The translations under genes were made by a program, and so were the position numbers. Source: Curtobacterium sp. MCSS17_015 (GTDB taxonomy: Bacteria > Actinomycetota > Actinomycetes > Actinomycetales > Microbacteriaceae). Taken from it: 64,000 bases of DNA. Shown piece by piece: positions 46,772 to 53,422 of this stretch. How positions within the stretch are numbered: the stretch's first letter is position 1; each line of letters opens with the position of its first letter. The notes under the pieces were generated by a model. It saw only the letters and a list, made by a program, of their open reading frames with translations, was not told where the DNA came from and made no database searches. The stretch is from positions 682,001 through 746,000 of the forward strand of contig NZ_CP126256.1 in the NCBI RefSeq assembly GCF_003234265.2, given 5' to 3'.

Positions 46772-47053
46772 ATGTCGCGTGTGCTTTCGACCGAACAGGC
46801 GAAGACCGCCATCCGTCAGATCCAGTCCATCGTGAACGGTGGGTTCACGGACCAGATCTCGCAGCTCGACGCCCAGGGGCGCATCCTGTCCGACTCGAAC
46901 GTGTGGGACGGCCCGCTCGCGGCGAACTTCCGTGGCTCGACGTGGCCGGAGACCAAGGCTGCGCTCGACAAGGCGAAGACCGAGCTCGAGCAGCTCCGCA
47001 CGCAGCTCGACAAGATCTCGCAGGACATCTTCACCGCGGGTGGCGGCGCGTAA
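46772..47053 (+). CDS. WXG100 family (ESAT-6-like) protein
   Basis: A 93-residue helical-hairpin protein with a WDG turn in place of WXG (SNVWDGPLAANFRG) between two long helices (TEQAKTAIRQIQSIVNGGF, and AALDKAKTELEQLRTQLDKI). Such proteins are exported by ESX/type VII machines and often pair with the N-terminal helices of large toxins. It lies 201 bases upstream of the Rhs gene. No ESX machinery is in the window. A hairpin after its stop could leave it made in excess of the toxin. Confidence 0.85.
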   Translation: MSRVLSTEQAKTAIRQIQSIVNGGFTDQISQLDAQGRILSDSNVWDGPLAANFRGSTWPETKAALDKAKTELEQLRTQLDKISQDIFTAGGGA

Positions 47054-47068
47054 CACCGCCCGTACAGT

Positions 47069-47101
47069 GCCCGGGTCGTCGACGAGCTCGACGGCCCGGG
47101 C
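47069..47101 (+). terminator. hairpin between WXG100 and rhs genes
   Basis: Bases 47069-47082 pair with 47088-47101 over 14 positions with one T-G wobble and a 5-base loop. Partial terminator or attenuator. Confidence 0.55.
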
Positions 47102-47126
47102 TGCTGTCGTCTCCGATGACCGGTCC

Positions 47127-47158
47127 CTGACCGCCGGAGAGCCTGACCGCCGGAGAGC
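47127..47158 (+). repeat. tandem 16-base direct repeat in the rhs leader
   Basis: CTGACCGCCGGAGAGC occurs twice head to tail at 47127-47142 and 47143-47158. A further 9-base repeat (three near-copies of ACGACCAGA) occupies about 47207-47233. Both lie in the 201-bp gap before rhs, and no gene is seen there. Confidence 0.8.
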
Positions 47159-47254
47159 ACGAGCAGCAGGACCAGCGCGGCCGGCAGGGCAGACGCGGCC
47201 GCGAGCACGACCAGAACGACCAGAACGACCAGCACGACGACCGGGGGACAGATC

Positions 47255-50200
47255 ATGGCCGACCTGCACGGAGCGGAACCGCTCGAGTTCGACAACGGCA
47301 CCGCCGACGCGCTCATCGCCGAGCTGACGTCCTCGGCCGACTCGATCGACGGGCAGGCAGGCAGCCGCTCCTCCTACGTCAGCACCGCCGCGCAGGAGTT
47401 CCGCGGGCACTTCGCCGACCTGTTCGGACAGAACGCCTCGACGGCCGCCAGCGACGCCACGCGCCTGACCGGGACGCTCCGCGAGGTCGCCGGATGGGTC
47501 CGGACGCTCAAGACCGCCGCCGAGCAGGAGAACGCCCGCCGCAAGCGAGCCCGTGACTGGCAGGCCGAGCACGACTCCCGCAACTGGTTCGAGCAGGGCC
47601 ACGACTGGCTCTTCGGCGAGGACAAGCCGCCGACGGAGGAAGCGGAACCGGCACCCGTGTTCCACGCGAGCACCCCGCCCACGACCGCTCGACAGACGCC
47701 GACGCCCGGTTCCGGTGGTGGTGGCGGCGGCGGGACGTCGTCCGCTCGCCCCGACGACCTGCGCTCCTTCGCCACGGGGTCGTCGTCGTTGAACGGACAG
47801 CTCTCCGGTCGTGGTTCCGCGCTGCGCGGCAAGCTCGACGACTTCGCCTCCCGCTGCAAGTGGGGGAGCATCAGCGCCCACGGTGTCGCGACCGCGATCG
47901 ACAAGTGGCTCGAGGCGAACGAGACCGACGTGTCCTGGGCGAACACGGTCGCCTCGGCCTTCGAGGCGGCGGGGGGCAGCGGCTCGGTGTCGACCGTGTC
48001 CGACGTGGCGCTCGCGGCCGCGTTGCAGGGCGCCGGGGTCTCGGCTGAGCGCTCCGGCCTGACCATCGAGCCGCCGCAGGCGTTCGGCGCGGTGCCGACC
48101 ACCGGCTACTCGATGGACCCCATCAACACCTCGACCGGCAACTTCCTCGAGTCGGAACTCGACCTCGGGTTCGCCGGAGCGTCCGAGTCGCTCCGGCTCA
48201 CCCGCATGTACAACTCGCTCGACGACCGTTCCGGACTGTTCGGGCCGGGCTGGGCATCCGTCCTCGAGACGCGGCTCGACGTCGACGACGAGGGCGTCTC
48301 CCTGACCCAGGCCGACGGCCGAGTCCTCCGCTTTCCCCGCGACGGGGACGGCTGGGCCACGGCGGTGGAGGAGTACCTGCGACTGACGCGCGAGGACGAC
48401 CGGCTCGTCGTCCGTGACTCCACCGGTGCGTGGTGGGCGTTCTCACCGGCCGGCACCTGGCTGGCAGCCGGATCCGGCCCCGGCACGACGATGACCGTCG
48501 AGCGGGACGCCGACGGTGCGCTGACGCGTCTCGCCCACGAGCGCGGGCGCTGGATCGACGTCGAGACGCTCGACGGACGGGTCGTCGTCGCCCGCGCCTC
48601 GGACGGGCGCCGGGTCGAGTACGCGTACGACGAGGCCGGGCGGCTCACGCACGTCCACGGCGCGACCGGCACCCGCACGTACGAGTGGGGCGACGCGGGG
48701 CTCGTCGTCGCGGTCGTCGACGAGGACGGTGTCGTCGAGGCCCGCAACACCTACGACGAACGGCGCCGCGTCGTCGAGCAGGTGAGCCCGCACGGCCGCA
48801 CGGTCCGGTTCGCCTACCTGCCAGGTCGGGTGACCGTCGTGTCCGACCCGGACGGCGGACGCTCGAACACCTGGATCTCCGACGCGAAGGGTCGGCTGGT
48901 CGGGGTCGTCGACACCGACGACGCCCGCCAGTCGATGCAGTACGACGCCCGCGGCCGCCTGGTCTCCGTCACCGACCGTTCCGGAGCCGTGACGGTCCAC
49001 GCGGTCGACGCCCGCGGCCGCCGCACCCGGACGGTGACGCCCTCAGGGGCGGACATCACCTACGGGTACGACGAACGCGACCGGGTGACCACCGTCGTCA
49101 CCGAGACCGGCTCCGTCGTCACCTACGAGTACGTCGGCGACGACCGGGACCCCTCCGTCGTCGTCGACCCCGAGGGCGGGCGGAGCGAACTCACATGGGA
49201 GCGGGGACTCCTGCGGCGCGCGGTGGACCCGACCGGGGTGGTCGTCGAGCTCGAGCACGACGAGCACGGCGAGCTCGTCGCCACCCGGAACGCCCTGGGC
49301 GACGTCATGCGGGTCGAGCGCGACCCCGCCGGACGCCCGACCGCCGTGGTGATGCCGTCCGGTGCGCGGACCGAGTACCGCTACGACCAAGCCGGCCGGG
49401 TGACCTCCCGCCGGGACGCGGACGGCGCGGTGTGGTCGTTCGAGCACGAGGGGACCCGCCTCGTCGCCACGACCGATCCGACCGGCGCACGGACGACCTA
49501 CGGGTACGGCACGAACGGCGAGTTCGAGCGCACGACCGACCCGCTCGGACGCACCACGTCCCGGACCTTCGACGACCTCGGCAACCTCGCCGCGCTCGAC
49601 CTGCCCGACGGCGGCCACTGGACCTTCGTCCACGACCCGCTCTCCCGCCTCCGCGAGACGGTCGACCCCGCGGGGCAGGTGTGGCGCCGCGACCACGACC
49701 GGAACGGCGACCTCACCGGCGTGACCGACCCCACCGGCCAGCGTGTCGAGGGCACCACGGACCTGTCGACGGGCGTCGCCACCCTCCGTGACGCGTTCGG
49801 CACCACGACGGTGCGCTCCGACCAGTACGGCCGACCGGTCGAGGTCGCGAGTGCGGACGGCACCGCCGAGCTCGTCACGTACGACCGCTGCGGCCGACCG
49901 GTCGAACTCGTCGACGGCGAGGGCGGACTGACCCGTCTCGAACGCGACCTCGCCGGCCGGGTGACCGCGGTCGTCGAGCCCTCGGGTGCCCGGACCACGT
50001 ACGAGTACGACGCCTGCGGCCGTCCGGTCGCGAGCACCGACTCGCTCGGCGCGCGGACGGAGCTCGGGTACGACGCCGACGGCCGGGTCGTCACGCGGAC
50101 CTTGCCCACCGGCGACGTCGAACGCACTGCCTACGACGCGGTGGGCCGACCGGTGTCGCGGACCACTCCGGGTGCCGGCACGTCCCGCTGGCGCTGGGAC

Positions 50201-52702
50201 GCCGCCGGACGACTCGTCGCCACGCAGGACGTCCGGTCCGGGCAGCGACGCTTCCGGTACGACGCCGCCGGACAGCTCGTCGAGGCCGTCGACGGACTCG
50301 GCGGGGTGACCCGGTTCGACCACGACCTCCGTGGGCGCGTGACGAGCGTCACCGACCCGCTCGGCGGCGTCACCCGGTACGAGTACGACCAGGCCGACCG
50401 GGTGGTGGCCGTGTCGGACCCGCTCGGCCGCAGGTCGACGGCGTCCTACGACGCGGCCGGTCGACAGACCGGGCAGACCGACCCCGACGGGCACACCACC
50501 ACGTGGACGTTCGAGGACGGCGGTCGGCAGACCACCGTGGCGGTGGACGGTCGCACGGTGTCCGAGGTGCGCGTCGACCGGGCGGCTCGGAGCATCGTGG
50601 TCACGGACCACAGCGGTGGTGCCGGTCGCGCGTTCGACCACGAACTCCGGTACGACCGGCGTGGGCTGCTCGTCTCGCGGAGCCGGGGGGACCGCGCCGT
50701 CGTCTGGGAGTACGACGCCGACGGCCGCAGGACCGCCCGGACCGACCCCGACGGCACCCGGACGGTGTACCGCCGCGACGCAGCCGGCCGGGTCGTCGCC
50801 GTCCAGCGGGCCGACCTGCCCGACGTCTCGTTCGTCCTCGACCCGGTCGGCCGACCGGTGCAGGCAGCGGCGGGCGACGTCGTGCACGCCTGGAGCTGGG
50901 AGCGCGGCCGGCTCGTCACGCACACCACCACGACGACCGACGGCGTCGAGGTCGCTCGCGTCGAACACGACGCCGAGGACCGGATCCGCGCGGTCGTGTA
51001 CGGGGACGGCACGACCTCGTACACGCACGACGCCGCCGGACAGCTCGTCCGCGCCGAGCGTCCCGACGGCAGCGTCTCCACCTGGGAGTACGACGCCGCC
51101 GGACGACTCGTCGCGGAGCGCTCCGGCGACACCTCCCTGCGCCACGAGCACGACGCCGCCGGGCAGCTCGTCGCGAGCACCGACGTCGCGACCGGCGCAC
51201 GGGTGGAGTACGTCTCCGACGGGCTCGGGCGACGGGCCCGACGGACCGCCGCCGACGGCTCGACGACCGAGTACGCGTGGGACGACCTCGGGTACCTCGC
51301 CGGCGTGGTCGAGCGGGACGCGACGTACGTCGAGACCGGCGGGCACCGTATCCGGGTGGACGTCCTCGGCGAACCGCTCGAGGTCGACGGTGCCGAGACC
51401 TGGTGGGACAGCGCCGCCCCGCTCCCGTCGCTGACGTCGATCGGCGGCACGGCGGTCCTGGGTCTGGCGGGTGGCATCACCGCGGTCGGGGGCACGTGGG
51501 CTGCTCCGTCGTGGCGACCGGGTCGGGCGACGGACCTCGCCGACCCGTGGCGTGCGTCCGGAGCGACGGCCGGTCCCGGGGCGACGGGCGCGGCCGACGC
51601 GCCCCCGGGCCTCCCTGCCGGTGTCGGCCTGAGCGTCACGGGCGGTCTGGCGATCGCCGGGCTCGAGTGGCTCGGCGCCCGCGTGTACGACCCGGTGGCG
51701 CGCGGCTTCCTGTCCGTCGACCCGCTGCCGCCTGTGATCGGGACGGCGTGGGCCGCGAACCCCTACGCGTACGCGGGGAACGACCCGCTGCACGCGGCCG
51801 ACCCGCTCGGGCTCCGGCCGGCGACGGACGCGGACCTGCAGGCGTACCAGGCGGAGCACGGCAGCCACTGGGAGTACGTGGCCGCCGGGGTCGTCGGCGC
51901 GATCGGCGTCGGCATCGGCGTGGCGCTGCTGTTCACCGGGGTGGGGGGACCCGCGGGCATCGCGCTCATGGCGGCGTCGGGCGCGATGGTCAGCGGAGCG
52001 ATCTCGACGGCGTCCCAGAAGGCCACCAAGGGCACGGTCGACTGGGGGCAGGTCGCGGTGGACACCGCAGTGGGCGGGATCACCGGTGCCGTCGGCGGCG
52101 GCGGGATGATGGTCGCGAGCCGGGCGGCGGCAGCAGCGTCGTCGACCAGCCGCTTGGCGGGTGCCGCGGCCGTCAACGCCTCGGTCAACGGTGCTGTCGG
52201 AGCCACGAGCAGCGGCGTCTCGTACGCCGTGAACCACGAGGGGGAGTGGAACAACCGTGACTTCCTCGCGCACGTGGCGGGTGGTGGCGCGAGTTCCGCG
52301 CTCGGCAGCATGGCGGGGCCGGCCGGGGGGACCTTCGCGCAGCGCTTCGGGCAGACGACCACCTCGGTGACCGCTCGCGTCGCGACGCTCGGGTTCGGCG
52401 GCGGGAGCAGCGTCATCGGCGGCGCCGCGGACAACCTCATCGCAGGCAAGCCCACGTCGGTGTCCGACGTCCTGTGGAACACCGGCACGGGCGTCGTCGG
52501 AGCGTCCGTACCGGGCGGGCAGTCTCCGAGCGCGTCGCTCAACCAGATGGCGCAGACGAACATCCGGACCTTCGAAGGCGTCTTCAGCGGGTCGACCAAC
52601 GCAGTTCGGCTGTGGCAGTCCGCGGGTGTCGGCGGCAGCCTCGGGGTCGGGACGGACGCGGCGCAGTCGTGGCTGAAGGACCAGGGGGTCTACCCTCAGT
52701 GA
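47255..52702 (+). CDS. Rhs/YD-repeat polymorphic toxin
   Basis: A 1815-residue toxin. Residues 1 to about 105 form a WXG-like helical region (ADLHGAEPLEFDNGTADALI), suiting type VII export with the WXG100 partner. After a Gly linker and a helical domain comes the DUF6531-like entry YSMDPINTSTGNFLESELDL (about 285), then a long series of YD repeats (YDAAGQLV, YDADGRVV) to about 1440, and the Rhs core GARVYDPVARGFLSVDPLPP to DPLGLRP (about 1475-1520). The last 295 residues are Gly/Ala-rich with membrane-like stretches (VAAGVVGAIGVGIGVALLFT) and VDWGQVAVD; no catalytic motif is seen. A pore-forming or membrane-acting tip is inferred. Confidence 0.88.
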   Translation: MADLHGAEPLEFDNGTADALIAELTSSADSIDGQAGSRSSYVSTAAQEFRGHFADLFGQNASTAASDATRLTGTLREVAGWVRTLKTAAEQENARRKRARDWQAEHDSRNWFEQGHDWLFGEDKPPTEEAEPAPVFHASTPPTTARQTPTPGSGGGGGGGTSSARPDDLRSFATGSSSLNGQLSGRGSALRGKLDDFASRCKWGSISAHGVATAIDKWLEANETDVSWANTVASAFEAAGGSGSVSTVSDVALAAALQGAGVSAERSGLTIEPPQAFGAVPTTGYSMDPINTSTGNFLESELDLGFAGASESLRLTRMYNSLDDRSGLFGPGWASVLETRLDVDDEGVSLTQADGRVLRFPRDGDGWATAVEEYLRLTREDDRLVVRDSTGAWWAFSPAGTWLAAGSGPGTTMTVERDADGALTRLAHERGRWIDVETLDGRVVVARASDGRRVEYAYDEAGRLTHVHGATGTRTYEWGDAGLVVAVVDEDGVVEARNTYDERRRVVEQVSPHGRTVRFAYLPGRVTVVSDPDGGRSNTWISDAKGRLVGVVDTDDARQSMQYDARGRLVSVTDRSGAVTVHAVDARGRRTRTVTPSGADITYGYDERDRVTTVVTETGSVVTYEYVGDDRDPSVVVDPEGGRSELTWERGLLRRAVDPTGVVVELEHDEHGELVATRNALGDVMRVERDPAGRPTAVVMPSGARTEYRYDQAGRVTSRRDADGAVWSFEHEGTRLVATTDPTGARTTYGYGTNGEFERTTDPLGRTTSRTFDDLGNLAALDLPDGGHWTFVHDPLSRLRETVDPAGQVWRRDHDRNGDLTGVTDPTGQRVEGTTDLSTGVATLRDAFGTTTVRSDQYGRPVEVASADGTAELVTYDRCGRPVELVDGEGGLTRLERDLAGRVTAVVEPSGARTTYEYDACGRPVASTDSLGARTELGYDADGRVVTRTLPTGDVERTAYDAVGRPVSRTTPGAGTSRWRWDAAGRLVATQDVRSGQRRFRYDAAGQLVEAVDGLGGVTRFDHDLRGRVTSVTDPLGGVTRYEYDQADRVVAVSDPLGRRSTASYDAAGRQTGQTDPDGHTTTWTFEDGGRQTTVAVDGRTVSEVRVDRAARSIVVTDHSGGAGRAFDHELRYDRRGLLVSRSRGDRAVVWEYDADGRRTARTDPDGTRTVYRRDAAGRVVAVQRADLPDVSFVLDPVGRPVQAAAGDVVHAWSWERGRLVTHTTTTTDGVEVARVEHDAEDRIRAVVYGDGTTSYTHDAAGQLVRAERPDGSVSTWEYDAAGRLVAERSGDTSLRHEHDAAGQLVASTDVATGARVEYVSDGLGRRARRTAADGSTTEYAWDDLGYLAGVVERDATYVETGGHRIRVDVLGEPLEVDGAETWWDSAAPLPSLTSIGGTAVLGLAGGITAVGGTWAAPSWRPGRATDLADPWRASGATAGPGATGAADAPPGLPAGVGLSVTGGLAIAGLEWLGARVYDPVARGFLSVDPLPPVIGTAWAANPYAYAGNDPLHAADPLGLRPATDADLQAYQAEHGSHWEYVAAGVVGAIGVGIGVALLFTGVGGPAGIALMAASGAMVSGAISTASQKATKGTVDWGQVAVDTAVGGITGAVGGGGMMVASRAAAAASSTSRLAGAAAVNASVNGAVGATSSGVSYAVNHEGEWNNRDFLAHVAGGGASSALGSMAGPAGGTFAQRFGQTTTSVTARVATLGFGGGSSVIGGAADNLIAGKPTSVSDVLWNTGTGVVGASVPGGQSPSASLNQMAQTNIRTFEGVFSGSTNAVRLWQSAGVGGSLGVGTDAAQSWLKDQGVYPQ
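52691..52696 (+). promoter_or_regulatory. possible internal leaderless promoter for the immunity gene
   Basis: TACCCT inside the last codons of rhs, eight bases before the ATG at 52705. It could allow immunity expression without the toxin. Confidence 0.4.
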
Positions 52703-52704
52703 CC

Positions 52705-53067
52705 ATGACGAAGGAGTGGCGAGGCCAGCGACAGCACCCCGTCACGCTGATCGCCGCCGTGGTCGGAGCGGGCGTCGGACTCCTCGTGCCGCTCATGGTC
52801 GTCGGGGACCAGGCCGGACGGGCCGCACCGTACCTGGCGGTCGGCTTCGTCGGGGGGCTGTTGCTCGGGGTCGTGGCGTTCTCCCTGCTCCGGCCGGGGT
52901 GGTCGGGACTCGTGCTCGTCGCGGCCATGTTCGCTGCCATGTTCCTGTTCAACCGGGTGCTCGACGGGTGGAGCGTGGCGCTGCCACCGTGGATCCTCGC
53001 CAGCTTCGCCGGGTCGGTCTTCGGTGCGCATCTCCGATGGCTGGCTGAGCGCAGGCGCCGGACCTGA
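52705..53067 (+). CDS. membrane protein, candidate Rhs immunity protein
   Basis: A 120-residue integral membrane protein starting two bases after the Rhs stop. Four membrane helices are likely: TLIAAVVGAGVGLLVPLMVV, YLAVGFVGGLLLGVVAFSLL, GLVLVAAMFAAMFLFNRVLD and PPWILASFAGSVFGAHLRWL. Direct position after a polymorphic toxin, and membrane location matching the membrane-like toxin tip, make immunity the best guess. A TACCCT box lies eight bases upstream. A partial second copy follows. Family not recognised. Confidence 0.65.
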   Translation: MTKEWRGQRQHPVTLIAAVVGAGVGLLVPLMVVGDQAGRAAPYLAVGFVGGLLLGVVAFSLLRPGWSGLVLVAAMFAAMFLFNRVLDGWSVALPPWILASFAGSVFGAHLRWLAERRRRT

Positions 53068-53287
53068 GTTCGTCGCGGGTCTCGTGTGGACGGGCGCCTT
53101 CGCCGTGTTCCGCCCGGCGACGGCGTCGCTGCTCCTCGTCGTGGGGATCGTCGGCGCGGTGTTCCTGTTCACCCGCGTCCTCGACGGGTGGGACGCCGCT
53201 CTGCTGCCGTGGATCATGTGCAGCTTCGCGGGCTCGGTGTTCGGAGCACACGTGCGCTGGCTCGTCAACGGTCGCGCACCGCGGTGA
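53024..53287 (+). pseudogene. truncated second copy of the membrane immunity gene
   Basis: An 87-codon frame whose last about 58 residues match the previous gene: VFLFTRVLDGWDAALLPWIM and CSFAGSVFGAHVRWLVNGR against MFLFNRVLDGWSVALPPWIL and ASFAGSVFGAHLRWLAERR. The first half (helices 1 and part of 2) is missing. The ATG at 53024 lies inside the end of the first copy in another frame; a GTG at 53084 is an alternative start. It may be a decayed duplicate or still made as a two-helix protein. Confidence 0.55.
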
Positions 53288-53422
53288 CCGACGCCGCACG
53301 ATCCTCGCGCGTGCGCGTGCGCGTGGTCACGCCGTGGCCCTGGTCGCTGCTGCTTGCCGGTCCGTCGTGGGCATCGCGGTCCCGGTGGGCATCCCCGGGG
53401 CCTCGTGGCCGCTGAGCCGCGG

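Follow-up and report, generated by a model that had tools for sequence, protein, structure and literature searches.

Rhs toxins whose tips act in membranes, and membrane toxins of type VII secretion systems countered by polytopic immunity proteins, are already known kinds. Tse5, a pore-forming Rhs effector delivered by the T6SS of Pseudomonas, is described as holding its C-terminal toxin, a 16-kDa fragment, inside an Rhs shell and as carrying a PAAR-like domain in a Gram-negative host (PMC10684867); its site of action is the cytoplasmic membrane, and its immunity protein Tsi5 is membrane-bound (PMC10684867, PMC12744356). As to type VII systems, the pairs TspA/TsaI, EsxX/ExiCD and TelE/TipE are characterized by a glycine-rich toxin end, and for TspA and EsxX by polytopic membrane immunity, with five TM helices predicted for TsaI and six for ExiC and ExiD, and by tandem and orphan immunity genes (PMC12744356, PMC9484751). 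Immunity to channel-forming effectors is stated to involve polytopic membrane proteins in almost all cases, and the LXG proteins EsxX and TelE are reported to use soluble DUF5085 immunity as well (PMC12744356). For TsaI, receptor-mediated immunity was discussed, with the immunity to lactococcin A serving as the analogue (PMC9484751). CDI ionophores, borne by a CdiA carrier in Gram-negative bacteria, combine an entry domain with a predicted helical bundle containing GxxxGxxxG, and their polymorphic cognate hydrophobic CdiI proteins (72-100 residues) are predicted to form two-helix hairpins (PMC11630599). The type VII variant T7SSd, consisting of an FHA-ATPase, a kinase, WXG100, TsdH and TsdI, was described in Actinomycetota including Olsenella and Bifidobacterium; in Olsenella uli it goes with an Rhs protein accompanied by WXG100-related genes, having a tip of unknown kind and an immunity candidate predicted to be cytoplasmic (PMC11217815). 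Curtobacterium is not named in the main text of that paper (PMC11217815).

Here we analyzed a window of 64,000 nucleotides from the genome of Curtobacterium sp. MCSS17_015 (3.32 Mb, one contig). On its forward strand, to which all coordinates below refer, a WXG100-like gene (46772..47053, 93 aa, a probable co-secretion partner) is followed by an Rhs gene (47255..52702, 1815 aa, no internal stop), by the gene of a 120-aa membrane protein (52705..53067) and by another copy of the latter, truncated at its 5' end (53069..53287, its open reading frame being listed from 53024). For the WXG100-Rhs locus of the original prediction, the presence and arrangement of all three genes were confirmed; the interval also contains the truncated copy.

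The locus resembles Tse5/Tsi5 in its Rhs shell, presumably with the C-terminal toxin inside, and in a protein that by hydropathy is membrane-integral, a candidate for immunity, encoded directly downstream; a shared mode of action is presumed. In contrast to Tse5, its partner is WXG100-like and its immunity candidate has several spans. With TspA, EsxX and TelE it has in common a probable type VII setting, the glycine-rich toxin end and the tandem and orphan immunity genes, and with the first two also the multi-span immunity candidate; unlike EsxX and TelE, its Rhs protein has no LXG match, and directly behind the 14 tips of the window's class counted below a multi-span protein is found. TspA, too, we take to be an LXG protein. 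None of these three toxins is known to contain Rhs repeats. The 120-aa protein, with three to four spans, differs in topology from TsaI, ExiC and ExiD as well as from the CdiI hairpins. With the CDI ionophores, the locus would nevertheless share a C-terminus of two parts, a predicted helical end placed after a possible entry domain, and hydrophobic immunity proteins that are polymorphic. As for T7SSd of O. uli, our genome likewise combines Rhs and WXG100-related genes with an FHA EssC-like ATPase and a Ser/Thr kinase, whereas the immunity candidate of O. uli is of another kind.

Rhs chassis and extent of the exchangeable tip

The Rhs protein contains 24 RHS repeat stretches (Pfam PF05593, E 7e-116), a DUF6531 domain (residues 288-360, 48116..48334; PF20148, E 8e-21) and an Rhs-associated core, whose end (residues 1469-1520, 51659..51814) scores above the cut-off of NCBIfam TIGR03696 (E 3.8e-10) and includes the DPLGL junction, which bears on a possible self-cleavage that would free the tip. 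With its repeats and core, a variable tip on a conserved chassis and a cognate gene next to it, the protein is, as judged from its sequence, a polymorphic toxin of the Rhs/YD type.

The N-terminal region (residues 1-130, 47255..47644), a proposed targeting domain, had been described as WXG-like; neither residues 1-130 nor residues 1-230, however, gave any profile match to a WXG/LXG-type targeting domain. As Pfam contained no LXG match for the whole protein at E<=1 or for its N-terminus at E<=5, membership in the LXG toxins was rejected. The gene ahead of the Rhs gene, predicted to belong to the WXG100 family, is indeed present and its product has the WDG turn, but the scores against TIGR03930 (E 1e-3) and PF06013 (E 0.015) are both under the curated cut-offs. 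At or near full length, and with 91-100% identity, this gene recurs in 22 of the 29 named loci of our comparison; it is partial in one and was not found in six, some of them on short or broken contigs.

According to the original prediction, the toxin comprised the last 295 or so residues, rich in Gly and Ala, whose membrane-like stretches were read as the sign of a membrane-acting tip. The two strong hydrophobic stretches (residues 1542-1560 and 1567-1585), however, both lie in a module (residues 1516-1620, 51800..52114) that, with 38-59% identity, precedes all 24 tips of class II, class III and other kinds compared, soluble-looking ones among them. The maximum hydropathy of this module is 1.70-2.40 in front of tips of class I, to which the window tip belongs (n=19), 1.86-2.33 in class II (n=13), 2.02-2.09 in class III (n=5) and 1.88-2.26 in other tips (n=6). 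DNA homology of the window to loci at the same chromosomal site stops at 52097 (L055) and at 52204 (L042), and the identity to L061, the same-site locus of Curtobacterium sp. MCBD17_032, falls between about 52099 and 52150. Since the module is common to other tips and the DNA homology ends at these points, the exchangeable tip on the conserved Rhs chassis is, by these comparisons, about residues 1621-1815 (52115..52699). The whole 295-residue end was therefore rejected as the toxin: without the first ~105 residues, which also occur before other tips, about 195 remain, and the stretches lose their value as a sign of membrane action.

Tip classes and the genes that follow them

Altogether, 39 loci (29 named and 10 others) were compared, the window included. 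They split into 14 loci of class I (window-like), 17 of class II and 6 of class III; outside these counts are L080, which is masked, so that no neighbour is callable, and L087, an orphan tip fragment counted among the additional tips below. With an automatic choice of the neighbour (by codon score first and hydropathy second), the gene behind the tip encodes a protein with two or more spans in 14/14 class I loci, with exactly one span in 17/17 class II loci and without spans in 6/6 class III loci; comparing class I with both other classes by Fisher's exact test yields p 1.6e-10, although the loci are related and the counts are not independent. Some class I tips are near-identical (L064, L084, G016 and G008 at 93-99%; L065 and G041 at 96%), and G388, being the same locus as L070, was counted once. 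An AGPAGGT-type motif (residues 1687-1693, 52313..52333, overlapping the zipper-type stretch GSMAGPAGG at 1684-1692 of the window tip) is found in 19 of 20 class I tips and in none of 13 class II and 5 class III tips, and invariant columns are present in the alignments of the tip family.

Another seven class I tips whose 3' end is intact (L087, G598, G743, G084, G196, the orphan G012 and the fragment G019), which come from the same genus, other genera and another family and include one on a non-Rhs-like carrier, also have multi-span neighbours; their neighbour frames were chosen by eye with the span counts visible, which could favour membrane proteins. The exception is G058, a decayed class I tip remnant lacking its 3' end and followed by a single-span protein. 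This remnant aside, the unrelated neighbours that would have refuted the original prediction did not turn up, each of these tips of the window class being followed by a multi-span protein. In G196 (L107), the matched tip comes after 150 residues of low-complexity, non-Rhs-like sequence, and the tip-neighbour pair may be movable between carriers.

As for the other classes, class II neighbours are proteins of 139-163 aa with one span and a recurring outer domain of the YD..H...C...GVT type (L066-L068, L073, L074, L076, L077, L081-L083, L085, L086, L088, L089), which suggests immunity outside the membrane. Class III tips (L069, L072, L075, L078, L079, L055) have neighbours of 105-114 aa without any span; two of these tips, L069 and L075, were scanned and gave no Pfam match. 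In PDB, phage T7 gp16 came up as a weak match of the profile built on class II tips (E 0.006).

The profile of the class I tip matches 14 of 66 genomes of the genus, in 11 of them on an intact frame of Rhs length; in wider samples, own genome included, it matches at least 5 of 398 genomes of the family, at least 3 of 396 of the order and at least 1 of 394 of the class, these being lower bounds, since no more than 8 candidates per genome were scored. The homologue search with residues 1621-1815 recovered the query alone among 7986 scored candidates, probably owing to the limit of word matching in Gly/Ala-rich sequence. The immunity profile (A2) matches 11 of the 66 genus genomes, 7 of which also have a tip match; divergent multi-span neighbours missed by it were found by direct reading. 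Its match to a 287-aa six-span protein in G062 (E 5e-7) was set aside as probably unrelated, no Rhs having been called in 16 kb.

The 120-aa protein of the window looks like an integral membrane protein: it has three strong hydrophobic spans and one weaker, which count as four at hydropathy thresholds of 1.2-1.3 and as three at 1.5-1.8 (by hydropathy only). Five database relatives are 59-64% identical to it. Its ATG (52705) lies two bases past the Rhs stop, whereas an alternative GTG (52699), giving the 122-aa form represented by the database copy P0005, would overlap this stop by 4 bases. Of the four-helix membrane protein predicted at two bases from the stop, the spacing from the ATG thus stands, and the fourth helix is the weaker span. 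Against PDB, the immunity profile gave weak matches to NADH-quinone oxidoreductase subunit J (E 0.06) and nothing else.

Several lines of comparison bear on the pairing of this protein with the tip. Between the window and L061, identity is 91% in the core, 96% in the module, 64% in the tip and 57% in the neighbour, and between the window and L062 (Curtobacterium sp. MCPF17_052) it is 83, 76, 35 and 12%, respectively; the Rhs chassis changes far more slowly than tip and neighbour. Over the 66 pairs of 12 loci, which are not independent of each other, the Spearman coefficient is 0.49 for tip and neighbour versus 0.31 for core and neighbour; for G050, G041, G016 and G008 the neighbour was taken as the frame with spans, which could favour membrane proteins. 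Displacement is seen as well. The window block 52702-53292, comprising the immunity gene and the truncated copy, aligns with positions 7897-8482 of L061, where a 91%-identical copy of the window membrane protein follows that locus's own pair of tip and immunity gene and one more multi-span gene; the truncated copy in the window is 85% identical to the C-terminal part of the cognate immunity protein of L061 and 89% to the database protein P0008. At the same site, G012 (L056) has the WXG100 and membrane genes with the Rhs gene missing between them, and G044 has a class III Rhs gene, a soluble neighbour and then a class I immunity gene. In C. flaccumfaciens UCD-AKU (L064), the neighbour is fused to Imm1 (PF14430; 23.5 bits versus the Pfam cut-off of 22.4), which is above cut-off in this one of six neighbours of other loci scanned and absent from the close homologue of the L064 neighbour in L084 and from the 120-aa protein of the window.

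By these comparisons, the tip and the gene behind it, which encodes a multi-span membrane protein, move and diverge as a unit, and orphan membrane genes persist in places that have lost the matching tip. Co-divergence, displacement, orphans and the Imm1 fusion make the 120-aa protein probably the cognate immunity protein, or at least a good candidate for it, and point to a cognate toxin-immunity pair.

Candidate delivery system

A second WXG100-Rhs locus, with a class II tip, is located in the same genome at ~2.94 Mb (L097 and L101, at about 2.91-2.95 Mb). Its Rhs gene is followed by the genes of a ~896-aa protein without a Pfam match, a single-span protein of 453 aa whose periplasmic-binding match is weak, a 1427-aa ATPase and, read from the other strand, a Ser/Thr kinase of 704 aa. 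The ATPase has FHA and FtsK/SpoIIIE domains above the Pfam cut-offs; its match to EssC (TIGR03928: 464 bits, E 9e-139) is below the cut-off of 778, and its strong EccC matches are below the cut-offs, too. EccCb scores above cut-off in 22 of the 66 genus genomes, our genome not being among them; a weak match alone is not diagnostic, as the EccCb search gives matches in 66/66 genomes and in 8/14 controls, and the EccB search, silent in the genomes and in its own controls alike, carries no information. Together, the FHA ATPase, the kinase and the WXG100-like gene near the second Rhs gene make up a T7SSd-like set, in which TsdH and TsdI were not identified.

This ATPase, adjoining the other Rhs gene, is 2.19 Mb away from the window locus along the contig. 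The WXG100-like proteins of the two loci differ at only 1 of 93 residues, which makes shared delivery of both Rhs proteins plausible; by analogy with T7SSd, it is plausible that the window Rhs is delivered by this system encoded elsewhere in the genome. A third Rhs gene (L096, ~1.89 Mb, 1254 aa called) has a soluble-looking tip, and no WXG100-like gene was found in the 15 kb around it.

Proposed mode of action and alternative explanations

We consider it rather probable that these genes code for an antibacterial Rhs toxin of the polymorphic kind and for its immunity protein, the tip acting at the target membrane and the partner protecting there. In this case, the Rhs shell would cage the tip inside the producer, and the Rhs protein would be exported with its WXG100 partner through a type VII-like machine. 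The hydrophobic module common to the tip classes (residues 1516-1620) could help to bring the tip to or into the cytoplasmic membrane of the target, where the all-helical, Gly/Ala-rich tip would insert or assemble and dissipate the membrane potential, while the immunity protein in the owner's membrane would block its insertion or assembly. The pairing rests on comparison, whereas all the steps from export on are inferred from Tse5, TspA, EsxX and the CDI ionophores. Of the predicted membrane toxin neutralized in the membrane, the multi-span immunity candidate holds and the argument from membrane-like stretches falls; membrane attack by the tip is what we infer from the membrane location of its partner.

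Of the properties of the tip itself, some speak for this explanation and some against it. The last 180 residues contain 44% Gly+Ala+Ser and 8% charged residues. The best 19-residue hydropathy over 19 class I tips is 0.97-1.53, under the usual TM levels, the window tip having the lowest value (0.97), and its mean hydropathy (0.06) overlaps class II. Glycine zippers were rejected as diagnostic, being barely above composition in class I (6.4 versus 4.9 in shuffles) and above it in class III (strict GxxxGxxxG, 2.6 versus 0.56 in shuffles). The structure model of the tip is all-helical and has no strands, at moderate confidence (pLDDT 67.8, pTM 0.52); the model of a longer construct (A4) was discarded as too poor (pLDDT 47). 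No family match to the tip was found in Pfam, NCBIfam or the PADLOC models, and Foldseek gave no PDB match at E<=0.001; the alignment to a soluble enzymatic toxin fold that would have refuted the original prediction was thus not seen. A soluble enzyme fold was therefore rejected, within the confidence that this model allows. No known pore-forming toxin is among the Foldseek and VIA-align matches listed either, which excludes nothing.

The low hydropathy of the tip leaves room for another explanation, which we regard as possible but considerably less than likely: the tip may be toxic to something located in the membrane or beyond it, be it the Sec machinery, a transporter, a lipid precursor or a cytosolic target, the multi-span protein shielding the membrane target or blocking entry of the tip. 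Polytopic immunity may work via a receptor, as discussed for TsaI (PMC9484751), and since the window tip is the least hydrophobic of its class, this explanation becomes slightly stronger and membrane action of the tip slightly weaker. However, the tip has no catalytic or known-fold match, and, in our judgement, its Gly/Ala/Ser content and low charge look unusual for an enzyme. From the lack of a recognized toxin domain one might also suspect an inactive or degenerate end that survives by chance; this is quite improbable, considering that the signature is kept in nearly all tips of several genera, that the alignments have invariant columns and that the tip co-diverges with an intact neighbour. 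Equally, as the decayed G058 remnant has a different neighbour, the membrane protein might be a secretion accessory or a chance neighbour rather than immunity for the window tip. But the neighbour type tracks the tip class even at one chromosomal site, orphans are retained and displacement is matched, an Imm1 fusion exists, and a pair is found on a non-Rhs-like carrier, which makes this explanation the most improbable of those considered here. Against membrane action of the tip, which we still favour, we count its low hydropathy, the weak zipper excess, the moderate confidence of the model and the distant ATPase, as well as Imm1 in only one of the six neighbours, the relatedness of the loci and the single-span neighbour of G058.

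A more specific form of membrane action, to which we give very little credence, is that class I tips have a four-helix, glycine-packed fold like that of Tim17/22/23 and plant themselves in the target membrane by means of it. Aligned to PDB, the tip model of moderate confidence has as its nine best matches seven complex I chains, TIM22 and one chain of the TIM23 core, and the three best matches of one sequence profile, though weak (E 0.08-0.11), are to NDUFA11, as which PDB entry 8uca was named in that search; the remaining complex I chains are presumably NDUFA11-type subunits. Such subunits share the Tim17 superfamily. However, the structural and the sequence signal are both weak, the NDUFA11 match was not reproduced by the tip-only profile, and the Pfam Tim17 model (PF02466) does not match class I tips. 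Elsewhere, in G005 (C1:3436129-3436404), a 1812-residue open frame ~13 kb from an EccC-like match weakly matches Pfam Tim17 (E 0.04). If the class I tip were Tim17-like, it would be a bacterial weapon built like the core of the mitochondrial translocase.

In our searches of the open-licence full-text literature, we did not find the tip family of the window, its immunity family or the match between tip class and immunity topology, nor any title or abstract on a membrane-acting Rhs toxin in WXG100-associated systems of Microbacteriaceae. One Rhs chassis carries three classes of tips, whose neighbours are multi-span, single-span with an outer domain, or soluble. If the topology of the immunity protein reports the site of toxin action, the compartment attacked by uncharacterized tips would be predictable from the next gene, and, if our explanation is true, membrane-acting Rhs toxins would extend to the WXG100-associated systems of Microbacteriaceae.
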